From positions 1 through 32,510 of the forward strand of contig JALHTJ010000172.1 of NCBI GenBank assembly GCA_022865785.1: a stretch of 32,510 nt of DNA. Reading direction: 5' to 3'. This DNA comes from Candidatus Aminicenantota bacterium (lineage in GTDB: Bacteria > Acidobacteriota > Aminicenantia > UBA2199). A program made the translations under genes and the position numbers. Below, in pieces: positions 8,757 through 19,028 of this stretch. Position 1 is the stretch's first letter; the number at the start of each line of letters is the position of its first letter. Under the pieces are notes generated by a model, which was not told the DNA's origin, did not search any database, and worked only from the letters and a program-made list of their open reading frames with translations.

Positions 8757-9383
8757 ATGTTCAAGTCCCTGGTTCCGAAAAACGAAATATTTTATGAACT
8801 CTTCAACCAGATCAGTGCCAATACGGTCGAAGGTGTGCAAACCCTGGTCAAAATGCTCGATGACTGTGAGCATTACAACGAGTACGCTGTCAGCCTTAAG
8901 TCACTGGAGCACCAGACCGACCTTTTGGTGCACAGCGTCATGTCGCATCTGCACAAGACCTTCGTCACCCCCATCGACCGCGAGGATATCCACCAGCTGG
9001 CCGTGCGCCTGGACGACATCCTGGACCTGGCCGAGGCCGCCAGCTCACGCATCGACCTCTACCGCCCCTGCGCCGTGCCGCGCGAAGCCAAGGAGTTGAG
9101 CCACGTGCTGCTGGAGAGCGTCAAATTGGTCAAGGAGATGGTCGGCCTGCTGCGCATGCTGAAAAAGCCGACCCGCATCATGGAACTGACCGTGGAGATC
9201 AACCGCCTGGAGGACCAGGCCGACTACATCCGCCGCAGCACCCTGGCCCGGCTTTTCCGCGAGGAAAAAGATCCTTTTGAACTGATCAAGTGGAAGGATA
9301 TCCTGGAATACATAGAGCGGGCCACCGACCGCTGCGAGGACGTGGCCGACATCACCGAAGGAATCGTCCTGGAAAATACTTGA
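8757..9383 (+). CDS. DUF47 / PhoU-like phosphate transport regulator
   Basis: 208 aa; FVTPIDREDIHQLAVRLDDILDLAEAASSRIDLY pattern; immediately upstream of a PiT permease. Confidence 0.9.
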   Translation: MFKSLVPKNEIFYELFNQISANTVEGVQTLVKMLDDCEHYNEYAVSLKSLEHQTDLLVHSVMSHLHKTFVTPIDREDIHQLAVRLDDILDLAEAASSRIDLYRPCAVPREAKELSHVLLESVKLVKEMVGLLRMLKKPTRIMELTVEINRLEDQADYIRRSTLARLFREEKDPFELIKWKDILEYIERATDRCEDVADITEGIVLENT

Positions 9384-9396
9384 CCGAATAAGCACC

Positions 9397-10395
9397 ATGA
9401 TGATCCTGATCGTCTTCATTGTTTTTCTTGCCCTGCTTTTTGATTTCATAAACGGTATGAACGATGCCGCCAATTCAGTGGCAACTATCGTTTCAACCCG
9501 GGTGCTCTCCCCGCGCCTGGCCGTGCTTTGGGCGGCTTTCTTCAACTTTGCCGCTGCTTTTCTCTTTGGCGTGCACGTGGCCAATACCATCGGCAAGGGC
9601 ATCATCGATGTCAAAATCGTTTCCGCCCCCATGATCCTGGCTACTTTGATCGGGGCCATCACCTGGTCTTATTTCTGCACTCACCTGGGGTTGCCGATCA
9701 GCGTTTCGCACGCCCTGGTCGGCGGCCTGGTCGGAGCGGCCCTGGCCAAAAGCGGCATCAAGGCGCTGGTCATTTCCGGCTTGTTGAAAATCTCCCTGTT
9801 CATCGTCCTGGCGCCGGTAATCGGACTGGTGCTTGGCTACATGCTCATGATCCTGGTCATGTGGATCTGCCATAAGCGTTCGCCGCAGACGGTAGACCGC
9901 TGGTTCCGCCGCCTGCAGCTCTTTTCCGCCGCCCTGTACAGCATCGGCCACGGCACCAACGATGCCCAGAAGACCATGGGGGTCATCGCCATGCTGCTGT
10001 ACTCGACCGGCCACCTGGGCAGTACTTTCTACGTCCCCTTGTGGGTGGTCATCAGCTGTTATCTGGCCATTTCACTGGGTACCTTGAGCGGCGGCTGGAA
10101 GGTGATCGAGACCCTGGGCATGAAAATGACCAAGCTCAAGCCCGTGCACGGATTCAGCGCTGAAACAGCCGCGGCGGCTTCCATACTTTTTTCCACTTTC
10201 CTTGGAGTCCCCGTCTCCACTACCCATACCATCACCGGGGCCATCATTGGCGTCGGCTCCACCAGCCGCTTGTCGGCCATCCGCTGGGGCTTGGCCTATC
10301 GCATCGTCTGGGCCTGGATCCTGACCATCCCGGGATCGGCCCTGGTCGCGGCCTTGTGCTGGTATGGCATATCGTTGCTGCACCTTCCCGGCTGA
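9397..10395 (+). CDS. pit: PiT-family inorganic phosphate transporter
   Basis: 332 aa; FDFINGMNDAANSVATIVSTRVLSP and the duplicated GHGTNDAQKTMGVIAMLL / PVSTTHTITGAIIGVGST motifs. Confidence 0.93.
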   Translation: MMILIVFIVFLALLFDFINGMNDAANSVATIVSTRVLSPRLAVLWAAFFNFAAAFLFGVHVANTIGKGIIDVKIVSAPMILATLIGAITWSYFCTHLGLPISVSHALVGGLVGAALAKSGIKALVISGLLKISLFIVLAPVIGLVLGYMLMILVMWICHKRSPQTVDRWFRRLQLFSAALYSIGHGTNDAQKTMGVIAMLLYSTGHLGSTFYVPLWVVISCYLAISLGTLSGGWKVIETLGMKMTKLKPVHGFSAETAAAASILFSTFLGVPVSTTHTITGAIIGVGSTSRLSAIRWGLAYRIVWAWILTIPGSALVAALCWYGISLLHLPG

Positions 10396-10632: not shown

Positions 10633-11511
10633 GTGGCGCAAAAAAAATGGATGTTTTTGGCAATAGGCGTCTGCCTGGCGCTGGGCCTCTGGTTCTACGG
10701 CTGTGGCCGTAAAGGCCAGCAAGCCAATGCCATTCAAATCAAGGGCTCGGACACCATGGTCAACCTGGGCCAGGCCTGGGCCGAGGCCTTCATGCAGGCC
10801 GACCCCAAGGTTTCGGTGGCTGTCACCGGCGGCGGTTCGGGCACAGGCATCGCCGCCATGCTTTCCAACACCTGCGACATCGCCGAGCTCTCGCGTGAGC
10901 TCAAGCCCGAGGAGATCGCCATGGCCAGGCAGAAGGGCTTTGAACCCAAACAGATCATCGTGGCCCTGGACGGGCTGGCCGTGGTGGTCCACCCCGCCAA
11001 TCCGCTGTCGCAGCTGACCCAGGACCAGTTGGCCGCGATCTTCTCCGGTTCCGTCAGCAATTGGAAAGAAGTGGGCGGCAGCGACCTGCCTATCGTGATC
11101 TTGTCGCGCGAAGTCAACTCCGGTACCCATGTCTATTTCAAGGAGCACGTGCTGCGCGGCAACCGCAAGGAGAGCCAGGTGGAGTTCGCCGCCAATGCCC
11201 TGCTGCTGCCCAGTTCCCAGGCCATCGCCGACGAAGTGGCCCAGAATCCCAGCGCCATTGGCTATTACGGCATGGGTTACATTTCACCGAAAGAAAAGGC
11301 CCTGGCCATTGCCAAGGATGCCGATTCTCCATATGTTAAGCCTTCCATTGAAAATGTCGTCAGTCAGGCCTATCCTATCTCACGTCCGCTGCTCATGGTC
11401 ACCCGCGGCCAGCCCGCGGGGCTGGTGGCCCGCTTTATCGATTTCATCCTCAGCCCGGAAGGACAAAAGATCGTGGTCAAGATCGATTTCGTGCCGGTAA
11501 AAAACAATTAA
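10633..11511 (+). CDS. pstS: Phosphate ABC transporter substrate-binding lipoprotein PstS
   Basis: GTG start; lipobox-like WFYGC; IQIKGSDTMVNLGQAWAEAF, TGGGSGTGIAAM, SREVNSGTHVYFKEHVL. Confidence 0.93.
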   Translation: MAQKKWMFLAIGVCLALGLWFYGCGRKGQQANAIQIKGSDTMVNLGQAWAEAFMQADPKVSVAVTGGGSGTGIAAMLSNTCDIAELSRELKPEEIAMARQKGFEPKQIIVALDGLAVVVHPANPLSQLTQDQLAAIFSGSVSNWKEVGGSDLPIVILSREVNSGTHVYFKEHVLRGNRKESQVEFAANALLLPSSQAIADEVAQNPSAIGYYGMGYISPKEKALAIAKDADSPYVKPSIENVVSQAYPISRPLLMVTRGQPAGLVARFIDFILSPEGQKIVVKIDFVPVKNN

Positions 11512-11517
11512 ACAAAG

Positions 11518-12399
11518 ATGAAACCCATGCGGGTACGCAAGCTGAAGGAATGGCTTATTGAAAAATCCATTTTGCTCAGCGGCATATTTTCCGTTGTTTT
11601 CGTCGTATTGATATTCCTGTTTTTATTGCGCGAAGGGCTTTCCCTTTTTCGCGGCGAAAGCGTGATCGACTTTATTTTCGGCAAAAGCTGGTACCCCATC
11701 TCCGATCCGCCGCGCTTCGGCATCCTGCCGCTGATCCTCGGCTCACTGCTGGTCACTTTGGGAGCGGCCGCCATTTCGGTGCCCATCGGCATCGCCGCCG
11801 CATTGTACATCGCCGAGGTCGCGCCGCTGCGGCTCAGGGAGGCTCTGAAAGCCGGTATCGAGCTCCTGGCCGCCATCCCCTCGGTGGTCATCGGCTTCAT
11901 CGGCCTGATCACTCTCGGTCCCTGGATCAAAAATTTATTCAACATCCCTACCGGGCTGACGGCACTGACCGGATCGGTCACCCTGGCCTTCATGGCCATG
12001 CCCACCATCGTCTCCATCGCCGAGGACGCCATCACTGCCGTGCCGCGCCAGTACCGCGAGGCGGCCATTGCCATGGGTGCCACCAAGTGGCAGACCACCT
12101 GGCGCATCGTGGCCCGCGCCGCCCGCCCGGGTATGCTGGCCGCGGTCATGCTGGGCATCGGCCGCGTCATCGGCGAGACCATGGCTGTGATGATGGTCAC
12201 CGGCAACGCCGCCATCATCCCCACGAGCTTCCTGCAGCCGGTGCGCACCCTGACCGCGACCATCGCCGCCGAAATGGGCGAGTCAGTGCAGGGAGGGCCG
12301 CACTACGCGGCTTTATTCGCCATCGGCATCGTGCTCTTTGTCATTACCTTCCTGATCAACGGTGTGGCCGATCTTTATCTGCACCGCTCGCGCCGTTAA
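11518..12399 (+). CDS. pstC: Phosphate ABC transporter permease PstC
   Basis: 293 aa; GILPLILGSLLVTLGAAAISVPIGIAAALYIAE, YREAAIAMGATKWQTTWRIVARAARPGMLAAVMLGIGRVIGETMAV. Confidence 0.93.
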   Translation: MKPMRVRKLKEWLIEKSILLSGIFSVVFVVLIFLFLLREGLSLFRGESVIDFIFGKSWYPISDPPRFGILPLILGSLLVTLGAAAISVPIGIAAALYIAEVAPLRLREALKAGIELLAAIPSVVIGFIGLITLGPWIKNLFNIPTGLTALTGSVTLAFMAMPTIVSIAEDAITAVPRQYREAAIAMGATKWQTTWRIVARAARPGMLAAVMLGIGRVIGETMAVMMVTGNAAIIPTSFLQPVRTLTATIAAEMGESVQGGPHYAALFAIGIVLFVITFLINGVADLYLHRSRR

Positions 12400-12401
12400 G
12401 C

Positions 12402-13247
12402 ATGAAGCCGCGACTGGCCCAGAAGATCGCTTTTGCCTTCCTGCTGCTGGCCACCCTGCTGGTGGTGCTGCCGGTGCTGGTCATCCTGCTGATCATCGTG
12501 GCCAAAGGCGCCAGTGCCATCAGCTGGGATTTCCTGTTTTCCATGCCCCGGGACGGCATGACCGCCGGCGGTATTTTCCCGGCCATCCTGGGCACCCTCT
12601 ACCTGGTGATTGGCGCCATCATCTTTGCCGTGCCGCTGGGAGTCATGGCCGCCGTTTACCTGGTTGAATATTCCAGCGACAATTGGCTGTCGCGCCTGGT
12701 CAAGCTGTCCATCGTCAACCTGGCCGGCGTGCCTTCGGTGGTGTATGGCCTTTTCGGCCTGGGGATCTTTGTCACCTTCTTCCGTTTCGGCGCCTCGATC
12801 CTGTCCGGGTCGCTGACCCTGGGCATCATGATCCTGCCGGTGATCATCACTTCCTCGCGCGAAGCGCTGGAAAGCGTGCCCCGGCATTTCCGCACCGTCA
12901 GCCTGTCGCTGGGAGCTAGCCGCTGGCAGACCATCCGCCATTCGGTGCTGCCGCACGCCTTGCCGGGAATTTTGACCGGCATGATCCTGGGCCTGGGCCG
13001 GGCCGCCGGTGAGACCGCCCCCATCCTTTTTACGGTGGCCGCATTTTACCTGCCGCGCCTGCCGCAGTCGGTTTTCGATCAGACCATGGCTTTACCTTAC
13101 CACCTGTACGTCATATCCACCCAGGTGCCGGGTATAGCCGAGAACGTCCGCTACGGGACGGCACTGGTACTGCTGTCGCTGGTGCTGCTGCTCAACCTGG
13201 CCGCCATCCTGATCCGCTCCCGTTTCCGCAGGAAGAAAAAATGGTAG
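12402..13247 (+). CDS. pstA: Phosphate ABC transporter permease PstA
   Basis: ATG at 12402, 3 nt after the pstC stop; GGIFPAILGTLYLVIGAIIFAVPLGVMAAVYLVEY, LGASRWQTIRHSVLPHALPGILTGMILGLGRAAGETAPILFT. The ORF-track extension back to 12087 is overlap in another frame of pstC. Confidence 0.93.
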   Translation: MKPRLAQKIAFAFLLLATLLVVLPVLVILLIIVAKGASAISWDFLFSMPRDGMTAGGIFPAILGTLYLVIGAIIFAVPLGVMAAVYLVEYSSDNWLSRLVKLSIVNLAGVPSVVYGLFGLGIFVTFFRFGASILSGSLTLGIMILPVIITSSREALESVPRHFRTVSLSLGASRWQTIRHSVLPHALPGILTGMILGLGRAAGETAPILFTVAAFYLPRLPQSVFDQTMALPYHLYVISTQVPGIAENVRYGTALVLLSLVLLLNLAAILIRSRFRRKKKW

Positions 13248-14002
13248 ATCCGGCAGCCAAGTTCTCCATTCGCGCTTTCCATGTCCACTACGGCCAGTTC
13301 AGCGCCCTGCGCGACCTGAACCTGGAAATCCTGGCCAACGAAATATTCACCGTCATCGGGCCGGCCAATTCCGGCAAAACCACCTTCCTCCATTCGTTGA
13401 ACCGCTTGATCGACCTGGTGCCGGTCAGCCGTTGCCGGGGAGAGATCAGTCTGGATGGCATTGACATACGCCGTGGCCTGGAAATCGAAGTCCTGCGCCG
13501 AAAAGTCGGCATTGTATTTGCCCTGCCGCTGCCGTTGCCCATTTCCATTTTTGAAAATGTGGTCTACGGACTGCGCATGCAGGGCATACGCGACCCGCGG
13601 CGCCTGAACGAAGCGGTAGAGAGAAGTCTGAGAGAATCGTATCTGTGGGAGGAAGTCAAAGACCGTTTACGCACGCCGGCCATGAATCTATCCGGCGGTC
13701 AGCAGCAGCGTTTATGCATGGCCCGCATCCTGGCCGGCCAACCCGATGTGCTGCTTTTCGATGAACCAACCTCGGGACTGGACCCGATTTCCACGGCCAG
13801 GATCGAAGAGACGTTGCTGATTTTAAAGAAAAAATACACCATCGTATTGGTGACCAACAACGTGGCCCAGGCGGCCCGGGTGGGGGACCGCACCGCTTTC
13901 TTCCTGATGGGCGATATGATCGAAGTGAGCGATACAGGCAAAATGTTCACCACGCCGGCCGACCAGCGCACCAGCGACTATATAACCGGCAAGTTTGGCT
14001 GA
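13241..14002 (+). CDS. pstB: Phosphate ABC transporter ATP-binding protein, first copy (PstB1), degenerate Q- and H-loops
   Basis: Walker A GPANSGKTT, signature NLSGGQQQRL, Walker B VLLFDEPTSGLD; Q-loop reads VFALPLPLP (Ala for Gln) and H-loop reads VTNNVAQAAR (Asn for His). Confidence 0.92.
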   Translation: MVDPAAKFSIRAFHVHYGQFSALRDLNLEILANEIFTVIGPANSGKTTFLHSLNRLIDLVPVSRCRGEISLDGIDIRRGLEIEVLRRKVGIVFALPLPLPISIFENVVYGLRMQGIRDPRRLNEAVERSLRESYLWEEVKDRLRTPAMNLSGGQQQRLCMARILAGQPDVLLFDEPTSGLDPISTARIEETLLILKKKYTIVLVTNNVAQAARVGDRTAFFLMGDMIEVSDTGKMFTTPADQRTSDYITGKFG

Positions 14003-14003
14003 C

Positions 14004-14762
14004 ATGAGCGAAATCAGCATTGAAACCCGAGGTTTGAATCTTTTTTACGGTGATTTCCAGGCCCTGATCGGGATTGATCTGCAAATACCCGCCCGTAAAG
14101 TGACCGCCCTGATCGGACCCAGCGGCTGCGGCAAAAGCACCCTGCTGCGGGTGTTCAACCGTATGAACGACTTGATCGACGGCGTGCGCGTCAGCGGCCA
14201 GGTCATTATCGGCGGCCAGGACATATTCGCTCCCGGAGCCGACCTGCTTGGTTTGCGCGAAAAGGTGGGCATGGTCTTTCAGCGTCCCAACCCCTTTCCC
14301 CTTTCGGTGTACGAGAACATCGTTTTCGGTTTGGCCGTGCATCGATTGGCGCGCCGGCAGGAATACGGCGGCATCGTCGAACAGGCCCTGCGCAGCGTGC
14401 TGCTTTGGGACGACCTCAAGGATAGGCTGCACCATTCGGCATTGAAGCTGTCGCTGGAGCAGCAGCAGCGCCTGTGCATCGCCAGGGTGCTGCCTTTGAA
14501 ACCGCAGATCCTGCTCATGGACGAACCCTGTTCCGCTTTGGATCCCATCGCCACTCTGCACATCGAAGAACTGATGCAGAAATTGAAAAAAAAGTACACC
14601 ATCGTCATCGTCACCCACAACATGCAGCAGGCGGCCCGGGCCTCGGACCGCACCGGTTTCCTTTACCTCGGCAAACTGATTGAGATTAATGAAACCGTGA
14701 ACATATTCACCAAGCCGGCGCAGGCCATGACCGAAAACTATATCAGTGGCCGCTTCGGCTGA
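14004..14762 (+). CDS. pstB: Phosphate ABC transporter ATP-binding protein, second copy (PstB2), degenerate signature motif
   Basis: Walker A GPSGCGKST, Q-loop VGMVFQRPNPFP, Walker B ILLMDEPCSALDP, H-loop IVTHNMQQAARASDRT; signature reads LSLEQQQRL instead of LSGGQQQRV/L. Confidence 0.93.
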   Translation: MSEISIETRGLNLFYGDFQALIGIDLQIPARKVTALIGPSGCGKSTLLRVFNRMNDLIDGVRVSGQVIIGGQDIFAPGADLLGLREKVGMVFQRPNPFPLSVYENIVFGLAVHRLARRQEYGGIVEQALRSVLLWDDLKDRLHHSALKLSLEQQQRLCIARVLPLKPQILLMDEPCSALDPIATLHIEELMQKLKKKYTIVIVTHNMQQAARASDRTGFLYLGKLIEINETVNIFTKPAQAMTENYISGRFG

Positions 14763-14778
14763 AACCAGGAGAGAAAAT

Positions 14779-15429
14779 ATGGCGAGAGAACATTTTCAAA
14801 ACATGCTGCGCGGGCTGGAACAGGAGTTGGTGGCAATGGGGGAGATGGTCATTGCCGCCATTGACCGCTCTATCCAGGCGCTGAAGAACGTCGACAAGGC
14901 CGAAGCCGAACGCATCATCGCCGACGATGCCCTGATCAACCAGCGGCGCTGGGACATCGAAAACCAATGCATCCAACTTTTCGCTACCCAGCAGCCCGTG
15001 GCCGGGGACCTGCGCGAGATCGTGTCCTTTATCGACCTGATCACCAACCTGGAGCGCATGGCCGACCATGCCAAGGGCATCGCCACCATCGTGGTCCGAC
15101 ACGACCAAAAACCGCTGCTCAAGCCGCTGATCGATATTCCGCGCATGGCTGACAAGGCCCGCGAAATGATCCAGAAAAGCCTGACCGCCTTCATCACCCA
15201 GGATGTGGAAGCGGCCGCTGCCATCATTGAAATGGACAATGAAGTGGACGCTTTGTACGATCAGATTTTTCGCGAGCTTCTGACCTACATGATGGAGGAT
15301 CCCAAGACCATTACCCGCGCCGTCTACCTGATCTGGGTGAGCCACAACCTGGAACGCATCGCCGACAGGGTGACCAACATCTGCGAACGGATCATCTTCA
15401 TGGTCACCGGCGAGATCCAATCAGATTAA
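14779..15429 (+). CDS. phoU: Phosphate signalling/transport accessory protein PhoU
   Basis: ATG at 14779 after AGGAGAG; MAREHFQNMLRGLEQELVAMGEMVIAAIDRSIQALKN, LFATQQPVAGDLREIVSFIDLITNLERMADHAKGIA. Confidence 0.94.
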   Translation: MAREHFQNMLRGLEQELVAMGEMVIAAIDRSIQALKNVDKAEAERIIADDALINQRRWDIENQCIQLFATQQPVAGDLREIVSFIDLITNLERMADHAKGIATIVVRHDQKPLLKPLIDIPRMADKAREMIQKSLTAFITQDVEAAAAIIEMDNEVDALYDQIFRELLTYMMEDPKTITRAVYLIWVSHNLERIADRVTNICERIIFMVTGEIQSD

Positions 15430-15654: not shown

Positions 15655-16980
15655 TTGAAAAAAGCCAATCGCCTTATGGCGATAAAAGAAGCTGAAATCC
15701 TCAGTGAGGAGGCTGAACCTCCAAGCAGGGCGCTGCTGGAGGAAAGCAACAACCCTGCCTCGTCGTTGCTCTTTCCCGAGTTAATACAGTTCCCCAATTC
15801 CAAACCCGATAAAACAGTTCTGAAGATCGGAGCCCGTTCACTGCAGTTCCTGAGAAAATATTTTCCATTGGCGACAAAGGATGACTGGAATAATTGGGAA
15901 TGGCAGCTGCGCAACAGTATCACCAGCTTGAAAGCACTGCAGCAAATTCTGCAGCTGTCCGATGATGAGGTGCGAGCCATGACCGTGCAGAGCGGCAGCC
16001 TGCCCTTGCGCGTCACTCCGTATTATGCCAGCCTGCTCGATCCACTTGACTCCATGCAGCCGCTGCGCCGCAGTGTCGTGCCGGTAACAGCCGAGCACCT
16101 GATCTCCTGCGGTGAAGCCGCCGACCCGCTGGGTGAAGATACCCACAGCCGCGTACCGGGATTGGTGCACCGCTATCCCGACCGGGTGCTTTTGCTGGTT
16201 ACCGGTTTCTGTTCGACCTATTGCCGTTATTGCACCCGCTCGCGTCTGGTGGGCGACCAGAACAAGCGCCATCTCAACCACGAACAGTGGGACCGGGCCC
16301 TTTCCTACATCGAACTGAATCCTGCCGTGCGCGATGTCCTGCTCTCCGGCGGTGACCCGCTGACTTTACCCGATGACAGCCTTGAATACCTGCTGACCCG
16401 TTTGAGTCGCATCCCCCACGTGGAATTCGTCCGCATTGGCACCAAGGTGCCTGTGACCATGCCGCAGCGCATCACCCATTCGCTGGTCAATATATTGAAA
16501 CGTTTCCGTCCCCTGTGGATGAGTATCCATTTCACCCACCCTGACGAGATCACTCCGGAAAGCGCCCAGGCTTGTGAACGGCTGGCCGATGCCGGCATTC
16601 CCTTGGGCAGTCAGACCGTGCTGCTGAAAGACATCAACGATTCGGTGCCGGTCATGAAAAAATTGATGCATGAACTGCTCAAGATCAGGGTCCGTCCATA
16701 TTATATGTACCAGTGCGATCCCATCCTCGGATCTTCCCATTTCCGCACCCCGGTGGAAAAAGGCCTGGAGATAATCGAAGGCCTGCGCGGCCACACCAGC
16801 GGCTACGCCGTTCCCCATTACGTTATCGATGCCCCGAACGGCGGCGGCAAGATCCCTCTGCTTCCCGATTATTACCAGGGACGAGCCGACGGCAACATAC
16901 TGCTGAGAAACTACCAACAAAAAATATACCGCTACCCCGATCAGAAGAGCGAAGGATCGGCGCCGGGAGAGGGTTTGTAA
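15655..16980 (+). CDS. kamA: KamA-family radical SAM protein, lysine 2,3-aminomutase-like
   Basis: TTG start, GGGAGG SD; DWNNWEWQLRNSI, CSTYCRYCTRSR (CxxxCxxC), DVLLSGGDPL, IRVRPYYMYQCDPILGSSHFRTPVEKGLEIIEGLRGHTSGYAVPHYVIDAPNGGGK. Confidence 0.93.
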   Translation: MKKANRLMAIKEAEILSEEAEPPSRALLEESNNPASSLLFPELIQFPNSKPDKTVLKIGARSLQFLRKYFPLATKDDWNNWEWQLRNSITSLKALQQILQLSDDEVRAMTVQSGSLPLRVTPYYASLLDPLDSMQPLRRSVVPVTAEHLISCGEAADPLGEDTHSRVPGLVHRYPDRVLLLVTGFCSTYCRYCTRSRLVGDQNKRHLNHEQWDRALSYIELNPAVRDVLLSGGDPLTLPDDSLEYLLTRLSRIPHVEFVRIGTKVPVTMPQRITHSLVNILKRFRPLWMSIHFTHPDEITPESAQACERLADAGIPLGSQTVLLKDINDSVPVMKKLMHELLKIRVRPYYMYQCDPILGSSHFRTPVEKGLEIIEGLRGHTSGYAVPHYVIDAPNGGGKIPLLPDYYQGRADGNILLRNYQQKIYRYPDQKSEGSAPGEGL

Positions 16981-17064
16981 AAGTTAGTGCCAGGCTGAAA
17001 AACCGCTTGCGTATTTTTAGCAAGTGGAATAAAATCACCATGAAATCCAAACGCAGAGGAACCC

Positions 17065-18042
17065 ATGAACATTGGTTTAACCTATGATTTGAGGCAGGAT
17101 TACCTGGATGCAGGATACAGCGAAGAGCAAACCGCCGAGTTCGACAGTCCCGACACCATTGCCGCCATTGAGAAGGCGCTTATTGCCATGGGGCATAAGA
17201 CCATGCGCATCGGCAATGTAAAAAGTTTGGTTCAGCGGCTGGCCGCCGGCGAGCGCTGGGATATGATCTTCAACATCTGCGAAGGCATGTTCGGGTTGGG
17301 CCGTGAAGCCCAGGTGCCGGCCCTGCTCGATGCCTACCAGATCCCATATACGTTTTCCGGTCCTCTGGTGCTGGCTCTTACCCTGGACAAGGCTCTGACC
17401 AAGCGTGTGGTCCGCTCTCTGGGCGTGGCCACCCCAGATTTCGCCGTGGTCGCGGCCAAGGAGGATATCGCTGCCGTTGATCTGCCCTTTCCCCTCTTTG
17501 CCAAGCCCCTGGCCGAAGGCACGGGATTGGGCATCGATGCCAGGTCCAAGATAGATTCCCGCCGGCAGTTGACGGCCGTCTGTTGCGAATTGTTGGAAAA
17601 ATTCAAGCAGCCGGTGCTGGTGGAGACTTATCTGCCCGGTAGGGAGTTCACCGTCGGCATTGTCGGCAGCGGCACCGCGGCCGAAGCCATCGGGGTGATG
17701 GAAGTTTTTTTAAAACCAGAGGCCGAAGCCAATGCCTATTCATACGTCAACAAGGAGAACAGCGAGGAATTGGTCCAGTACGCACTGGCGCCCGAGGTGG
17801 AGGCCTCATCTTGCCGGGATGTGGCTTTGCGGACCTGGCGCGGCTTGGGTTGCCTTGATGCCGGCCGCGTCGACGTAAAAATGGACGGGAACGGTGCCGT
17901 TAATTTCATAGAGGTCAATCCCTTGGCCGGCTTGCATCACGAGCACTCCGACCTGCCGATCATCTGCAGCCTGGTGGGCATCCCTTTCCAGACGCTGATT
18001 GAGAGGATCATGGCTTCCGCCGGCCGCAGGGCACGCCCATGA
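17065..18042 (+). CDS. ATP-grasp ligase, D-Ala-D-Ala-ligase-like (copy 1)
   Basis: 325 aa; DMIFNICEGMFGLGREAQVPALLDAYQIPYTFSGPLVLALTLDKALTKRVV, PLFAKPLAEGTGLGI, NFIEVNPLAGLHHEHSDLP. Confidence 0.88.
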   Translation: MNIGLTYDLRQDYLDAGYSEEQTAEFDSPDTIAAIEKALIAMGHKTMRIGNVKSLVQRLAAGERWDMIFNICEGMFGLGREAQVPALLDAYQIPYTFSGPLVLALTLDKALTKRVVRSLGVATPDFAVVAAKEDIAAVDLPFPLFAKPLAEGTGLGIDARSKIDSRRQLTAVCCELLEKFKQPVLVETYLPGREFTVGIVGSGTAAEAIGVMEVFLKPEAEANAYSYVNKENSEELVQYALAPEVEASSCRDVALRTWRGLGCLDAGRVDVKMDGNGAVNFIEVNPLAGLHHEHSDLPIICSLVGIPFQTLIERIMASAGRRARP

Positions 18043-19028
18043 ATGGGAAAAAAGCGGTCATCCTGCACAGCCAGGTCGGGGAAGATTCGCCCAAGGACGA
18101 ACAGGACGTGCTGGTCCAGGCCGACGAGGTTTGCCAATCCCTGGCCGAACTGGGTTACCAGCCGGAGATCGTGCCTTTTTACCTTGATCTTGAGAAAAAT
18201 ATCCGCACCCTAAAAAAAATGGATCCGCTCTTTGTCTTCAACCTGGTGGAGACGGTGGAAGGCAACGGCCAGCTGATCCACCTGGCGCCGGCGCTGCTCG
18301 ACCACCTCGGCCTGCCCTACACCGGCAATAGCCAGGAAGCAATTTTCGTAACCTCCAACAAAGCCCTGTCCAAGAAACTGCTCTCTGCGGCCGGGGTGGC
18401 TTCCCCGCCCTGGCTGGGAGATGGAAATCCCCGGGATGCCGCTGCGCTGGGAGCGGGGAGGTACCTGCTGAAATCGGTCTGGGAGCATGCCAGCAATTGG
18501 TTTGACGACAGCTCCCTCGTCCAGGTCGGCGGTGCCGCGGAATTGGGCGCGCTGCTGGAGAAGAAGAACCGCAGCGGCCGCGGCCGCTTCTATGCCGAAA
18601 GCTATATCGATGGGCGTGAGTTCAACCTGGCCCTGCTGACCGGTGAATTTTTGCCGGCAGCGGAGATCCAATTTGTAGAATTCCCTGACGACAAATTGCG
18701 CATCGTCGATTTCCGTGCCAAATGGGAAGAGGCTTCGTTTGAATACACCCATACCCCGCGTACCTTTGATTTCCCAGCCGCCGATCAGCCTCTTCTTGCT
18801 GAGTTGCGGACCATAGCCGGACGCTGCTGGGATTTTTTCAACCTGAGCGGTTACGCCCGTGTCGATTTCCGGGTGGATAAAAACAACCGTCCCTGGGTGC
18901 TGGAGATCAATACCAATCCCTGCCTCTCTCCGGACGGAGGTTTCCATGCCGCCGCTGAACGGAACGGTCTGTCGTTCAGCAAAACAGTGGAAAGGATCGT
19001 CAATGATTGCCTGTCCGCTAAGAAATAG
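18039..19028 (+). CDS. ATP-grasp ligase, D-Ala-D-Ala-ligase-like (copy 2, divergent)
   Basis: 329 aa overlapping copy 1 by 4 nt; LFVFNLVETVEGNGQLIHLAPALLDHLGLPYTGN, SNKALSKKLL, YARVDFRVDKNNRPWVLEINTNPCLSPDGGF. Confidence 0.85.
   Translation: MNGKKAVILHSQVGEDSPKDEQDVLVQADEVCQSLAELGYQPEIVPFYLDLEKNIRTLKKMDPLFVFNLVETVEGNGQLIHLAPALLDHLGLPYTGNSQEAIFVTSNKALSKKLLSAAGVASPPWLGDGNPRDAAALGAGRYLLKSVWEHASNWFDDSSLVQVGGAAELGALLEKKNRSGRGRFYAESYIDGREFNLALLTGEFLPAAEIQFVEFPDDKLRIVDFRAKWEEASFEYTHTPRTFDFPAADQPLLAELRTIAGRCWDFFNLSGYARVDFRVDKNNRPWVLEINTNPCLSPDGGFHAAAERNGLSFSKTVERIVNDCLSAKK

Follow-up and report, generated by a model that had tools for sequence, protein, structure and literature searches.

Two PstB-like ATPases with complementary motif losses in a phosphate importer operon of a Candidatus Aminicenantota bacterium

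Paired and degenerate ATPases in described ABC systems

It has long been asked why many ABC exporters retain one ATP site in an impaired state, while Pst importers are taken as powered by two like ATPases. The E. coli importer PstSCAB (PDB 9k3x, 9k3s) has a single pstB gene, hence a homodimer with two canonical sites. Adjacent pstB genes within a pst-phoU operon, as in the locus described here, are present in B. subtilis (PstBA/PstBB) and in E. faecalis (PstB1/PstB2): a PstBA/PstBB heterodimer has been modelled (PMC11466899), the two E. faecalis proteins are not equivalent, and according to the 2025 paper on this species the relative contributions of tandem pstB paralogs had not been the subject of any published study (PMC12096839). 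The motifs of the E. faecalis tandem copies are intact, and the Bacilli pairs which we examined are canonical in both copies, except four of streptococcal type (one from S. cristatus) in which only the H-loop His of the downstream PstB is changed, to Arg (VTRSM), its Q-loop and LSGGQ being intact. This is a different asymmetry, and a one-sided one.

Each ATP site of an ABC transporter is made of the core of one subunit and the signature of the other (PMC7756269). In TAP1/2, TM287/288, BmrCD, MRP1/CFTR, ABCG5/G8 and Pdr5, as in our Pst pair, the motif losses converge on one composite site, and the degenerate signature of Pdr5, LNVEQ, has a Glu at the same place as the fourth position of the PstB2 signature (PMC7756269). 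A preliminary description of the locus had likened it to such exporters. The likeness holds for the convergence of the losses and fails for the Walker B Glu, which is altered in most of those systems and kept here; they are also exporters or a channel, whereas the Pst pair belongs to an importer, is encoded by separate NBD genes and has lost a Q-loop Gln. The same description knew of no comparable Pst system. Degenerate sites are already known in importers, namely RbsA and NupO (PMC11466899), but these are of type II, their two NBDs forming a single fused chain and the second Walker A Lys being lost, whereas the Pst importer is of type I, with two NBD genes and the Walker A Lys kept. In the open-access literature we found no description of a degenerate-site Pst system; the unequal-site design is well known in exporters and, within that literature, was not previously described for a Pst importer.

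The operon and its two unequal ATPases

The window, i.e. the whole stretch of 32,510 nucleotides that was analysed, carries on its + strand a DUF47 (PhoU-like) gene and a Pit-type phosphate transporter gene (8757-10395) directly 5' of a pst operon, whose genes follow in the order pstS (phosphate-binding protein, 10633-11511), pstC (permease, 11518-12399, with the coupling loop VPRQYREAAIAMGATKWQ), pstA (permease, 12396-13247, with the unusual coupling loop VPRHFRTVSLSLGASRWQ), pstB1 (NBD of 253 amino acids, 13241-14002), pstB2 (NBD, 13995-14762) and phoU (14746-15429). The test for a Pst importer operon, pstS, pstC, pstA, an ATPase and phoU together, is met, with TIGR02136 (pstS), the permease families TIGR02138 (pstC) and TIGR00974 (pstA), and TIGR02135 (phoU) all above cut-off. 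There is a 7-base overlap between pstA and pstB1, and pstB2, whose start codon is TTG at 13995 or possibly ATG at 14004, begins at, or one base past, the pstB1 stop region. This arrangement fits a 1:1 synthesis of the two ATPases. The genome of the window also holds, on contig C15, another pst set, which has only one PstB; in this pstC-pstA-pstB set (L349, 7162-9696) the lone PstB reads LSVGQ, LLQKP and ILGDEP.

PstB1 keeps an intact signature, LSGGQ (13688-13702, within LSGGQQQR), and has an Ala (GCC, 13520-13522) at the Q-loop position and an Asn (AAC, 13856-13858) at the H-loop position. PstB2 keeps its Walker A (GPSGCGKST, 14115-14141), its Q-loop Gln (CAG, 14280-14282) and its H-loop His (CAC, 14616-14618), and its signature is altered to LSLEQ (14448-14462, within LSLEQQQR). 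We recovered both reading frames and, at their stated positions, all six of the codons and motifs which the preliminary description had reported, and we agree with its claim that the three losses fall on one composite site (PstB1 core and PstB2 signature, hereafter the broken site) while the other (PstB2 core and PstB1 signature, the intact site) is canonical. That description did not mention that both proteins have retained the Lys of Walker A and the catalytic Glu of Walker B: the Walker A of PstB1, in the broken site, is GPANSGKTT (13358-13384), its Walker B is LLFDEP (13751-13768) and that of PstB2 is LLMDEP. PstB1 further has SGLDP and PstB2 SALDP. A degenerate-site heterodimer passes one test, that the core deviations and the signature deviation of the other NBD lie on one composite site, and fails another, that the Walker B catalytic Glu be replaced, which is usual and not universal. 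The chance that three losses share one of two composite sites is 1/4. This means that a single locus proves little, and that the weight of the argument lies on the conservation of the pattern in 81 distinct tandem pairs.

PstB2 reaches 363.5 bits against TIGR00972, above the curated cut-off of 343.2, whereas PstB1 stays below it with 316.8 bits, although TIGR00972 is its top-scoring family. The AlphaFold2 models have a pLDDT of 93.2 (PstB1) and 92.2 (PstB2) and find their closest PDB fold match, both of them, in E. coli PstB; the closest sequence match of PstB2 is the PstB of E. coli PstSCAB. Being below the cut-off with E. coli PstB as best fold match, PstB1 is best called a PstB-derived NBD, and an automatic annotation as "PstB, PstB" conceals an asymmetric machine.

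Conservation and history of the pair

We surveyed 108 distinct tandem pstB pairs, with mainly Bacilli pairs as controls. The profile was built from B1 (the upstream copy), which means that upstream states were selected for while those of the partner, B2, were not; the cyanobacterial tandem pairs (Nostoc) named in PMC12096839 lie outside the survey. The full pattern, in which the upstream copy has lost Q and H and kept the signature and the downstream copy has kept Q and H and lost the signature, was observed in 81 pairs; the remaining 27 comprise one milder form, 20 fully canonical pairs, the 4 streptococcal-type pairs and 2 three-gene loci, where signature loss stands beside a canonical PstB and B1 is located further away. 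It had been proposed that core loss in one copy should go with signature loss in the other, and that random degradation in homologous tandem pairs would refute the idea: the former occurs in 82 pairs out of 82, a partner with an intact signature never (0/82), and no random degradation was seen. Signature loss is absent from 24 control pairs, mostly from Bacilli. We use the Fisher value over pairs as descriptive only and claim no significance, because the full-form B1 constitute one group on the tree and the pairs are not independent events.

Both copies have motif losses, as would be expected of decaying duplicates, or of assembly errors, devoid of function. We give this reading practically no credence: the 81 distinct pairs, from many assemblies, are alike, which rejects a sequencing or assembly error in the window, the substitutes are conserved, the predicted folds are intact, and the dN/dS ratios within the genus, 0.10 and 0.16, reveal purifying selection on both genes. 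The pseudogene reading is refuted by this selection and by the conservation over 81 pairs.

In further tandem pairs from relatives of the same genus, family and class, every B1 has the Q-loop Ala, the H-loop Asn and an intact LSGGQ, and in every B2 an intact Q and H are combined with a signature LSLEQ, LTGEQ or LSGEQ. Further cases come from genome-collection records named Ignavibacteriae, WOR-1, planctomycete, Elusimicrobia, Acidobacteria, Deltaproteobacteria, Syntrophorhabdus, Pirellulales and Poribacteria. Wider surveys brought in more genomes, belonging to the same phyla as the planctomycete, Syntrophorhabdus and Ignavibacteriae records. These names are those of the depositors, and the "Acidobacteria" record groups within the window's own phylum in the survey. 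The B1/B2 importer is spread over many phyla. Plasmid relatives of PstB are all below 60% identity and viral matches reach 58% at most, their motifs being unread. At the Poribacteria locus a third PstB-like gene (L075, 7480-8277), with Q, signature and H altered (VFRKP, LSIGQ, ATNKR), adjoins a second weak PstA-like reading frame.

The two composite sites are not conserved in the same way. We sorted non-redundant sets of 57 B1 and 53 B2 according to the state of Q, H and signature. The purity of these columns therefore holds partly by definition, while that of the A-loop, of Walker A and of the kind of substitute does not. All the parts of the intact site are invariant or nearly so: SGGQ in B1 (57/57), and the A-loop Tyr, Q-loop Gln, H-loop His and SGCGK in B2 (53/53 each). 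Most elements of the broken site drift, namely the A-loop of B1 (Tyr in 31, Phe in 18, others), positions of its Walker A, and positions 2, 3 and 5 of the B2 signature; its Q-loop Gln is found in 0/57. Exceptions to this drift are the H-loop Asn of B1 (57/57) and the acid at position 4 of the B2 signature (Glu in 49, Asp in 4), and B1 also keeps the Lys of Walker A, the Glu of Walker B and the Asp of the D-loop, the latter two without exception (57/57 each). The substitute residues being themselves conserved, the second site is specialised rather than simply decayed.

A milder form occurs in Chloroflexota, in some Bacillota and in the Syntrophorhabdus phylum. There, the Q-loop Gln of B1 is replaced by Ala, Asp or Ser while the H-loop His is retained, and the partner has an LxLGQ signature with the Gly of the fourth position retained. 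Over 101 distinct partnerships, an H-loop Asn in B1 goes with Glu or Asp at position 4 of the B2 signature in 81/81 cases and an H-loop His with Gly in 19/19, the last partnership combining Gln with Gly. At many milder loci B2 does not adjoin B1, although both accompany the same pstS-C-A set, with B2 in some cases on the opposite strand, and the correlation survives this changed gene order; four milder loci had no B2 partner within the stretch fetched. At eight Chloroflexota loci the B2 with LSLGQ has DEA or DES in Walker B instead of the usual DEP; these genes are divergent and next to pstS, and several of the loci have a third, canonical PstB. The search reported one in-frame TAA in a Chloroflexota B1 gene (L433).

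On the tree, B1 and milder B1 make up one clade (support 97), within which all full-form B1 cluster together (89-90). B2 and most of the milder B2 likewise group together (90), near canonical PstB. The full form requires one origin only, and the evidence is one of long retention, not of many independent events, with a mean pairwise identity of 57% among B1 and 63% among B2 and a mirror-tree r of 0.87 over 80 pairs. As the milder forms are at the base, an order of steps is suggested, and not proved, in which the Q-loop and signature position 3 changed first and the H-loop and position 4 later.

The coupling loop of PstA has the form R-x-V-S in B1/B2 operons, with Val in 52/62 against 0/70 in canonical operons, and no such distinction was seen for the loop of PstC. 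The altered NBD may dock on PstA, or the difference may be a lineage signal. The usual EAA-type Glu-Ala is missing from the PstA loop of the window (RTVSLSLGA).

One working site or two

As an ATP site is shared across subunits, the perfect signature of B1 and the perfect core of B2 can be useful only to each other. This is our main argument: we infer a PstB1-PstB2 partnership as the only explanation of both. We consider it quite probable that the PstS-PstC-PstA importer is driven by PstB1 and PstB2 as an obligate heterodimer, in which one site is hydrolytic. The intact site, made of the Walker A and B and the Q- and H-loops of PstB2 with the LSGGQ of PstB1, would power the cycle. The broken site (PstB1 core and LSxEQ of PstB2) would probably still bind ATP through the retained Walker A, and it would hydrolyse it poorly or not at all, since it has lost the Q-loop Gln and carries an acid in place of the signature Gly by the gamma-phosphate. 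It may thus be a lasting ATP-bound hinge, in which case about one ATP would be spent per Pi. The motif pattern, its conservation and covariation, the common operon, the purifying selection and the intact predicted folds are shown by the data. The composition of the dimer and its very formation, like hydrolysis at a single site, the stoichiometry and the role of the hinge, are inferred, without any dimer model or biochemistry.

The Walker B Glu, invariant at the broken site, is a point against a dead second site, and MRP1 still transported at close to the wild-type level when the H-loop of its NBS2 carried Asn or Gln (PMC7756269). This means that the second site may retain some activity and that its silence is an inference. 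One could even suppose that the heterodimer hydrolyses ATP at both sites and that the substitutions tune rate or affinity without silencing anything: the retained Walker A Lys and D-loop Asp of B1 are compatible with this, and single-motif changes are tolerated in NBS1 of Pdr5 (PMC7756269). We hold such a tuning to be unlikely, without dismissing it, as three elements of one site are altered jointly, the signature is acidic throughout B2, and the drifting A-loop and Walker A of B1 point to relaxed demands.

E. faecalis requires its PstB2, whereas its PstB1 is accessory (PMC12096839), and another PstB is present in most genomes with B1/B2. It is then conceivable that PstB1 has an accessory or regulatory role (in PhoU/PhoR signalling) while PstB2 works mostly with another PstB. 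However, motif losses are absent from the E. faecalis proteins, PstB2 alone, with its broken signature, forms no canonical site, and B1 would hardly keep SGGQ and the D-loop Asp without exception; moreover the B1/B2 pair is the sole PstB-like one at E <= 1e-75 in four genomes, several of the genomes with the pair only being incomplete assemblies. We therefore regard an accessory PstB1 as very improbable, and retain the obligate heterodimer.

More tentatively, and with rather less than even confidence, we propose that an ancient and widespread class of type I importers evolved one-site ATP use and a hinge by a stepwise, coupled path, with loss of the Q-loop Gln and change of signature position 3, then H-loop Asn with the acid at position 4. 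This would fix which NBD lies under PstA, whose coupling helix is also changed, and perhaps halve the ATP spent per phosphate or give PhoU one fixed docking face. With a small importer, separate NBD genes, canonical relatives and natural intermediates (first with the Q-loop alone lost, then with the H-loop lost and the signature acidic), the question of the impaired site becomes directly testable, and the ATP spent per substrate, the order of the evolutionary steps and the pairing of NBDs with permeases can be addressed.

Finally we note that downstream of the operon, at 15655-19028 of the window, a lysine-2,3-aminomutase-like radical SAM gene precedes a GNAT gene and two genes of D-Ala-D-Ala-ligase type, possibly a small amino-acid or peptide pathway.
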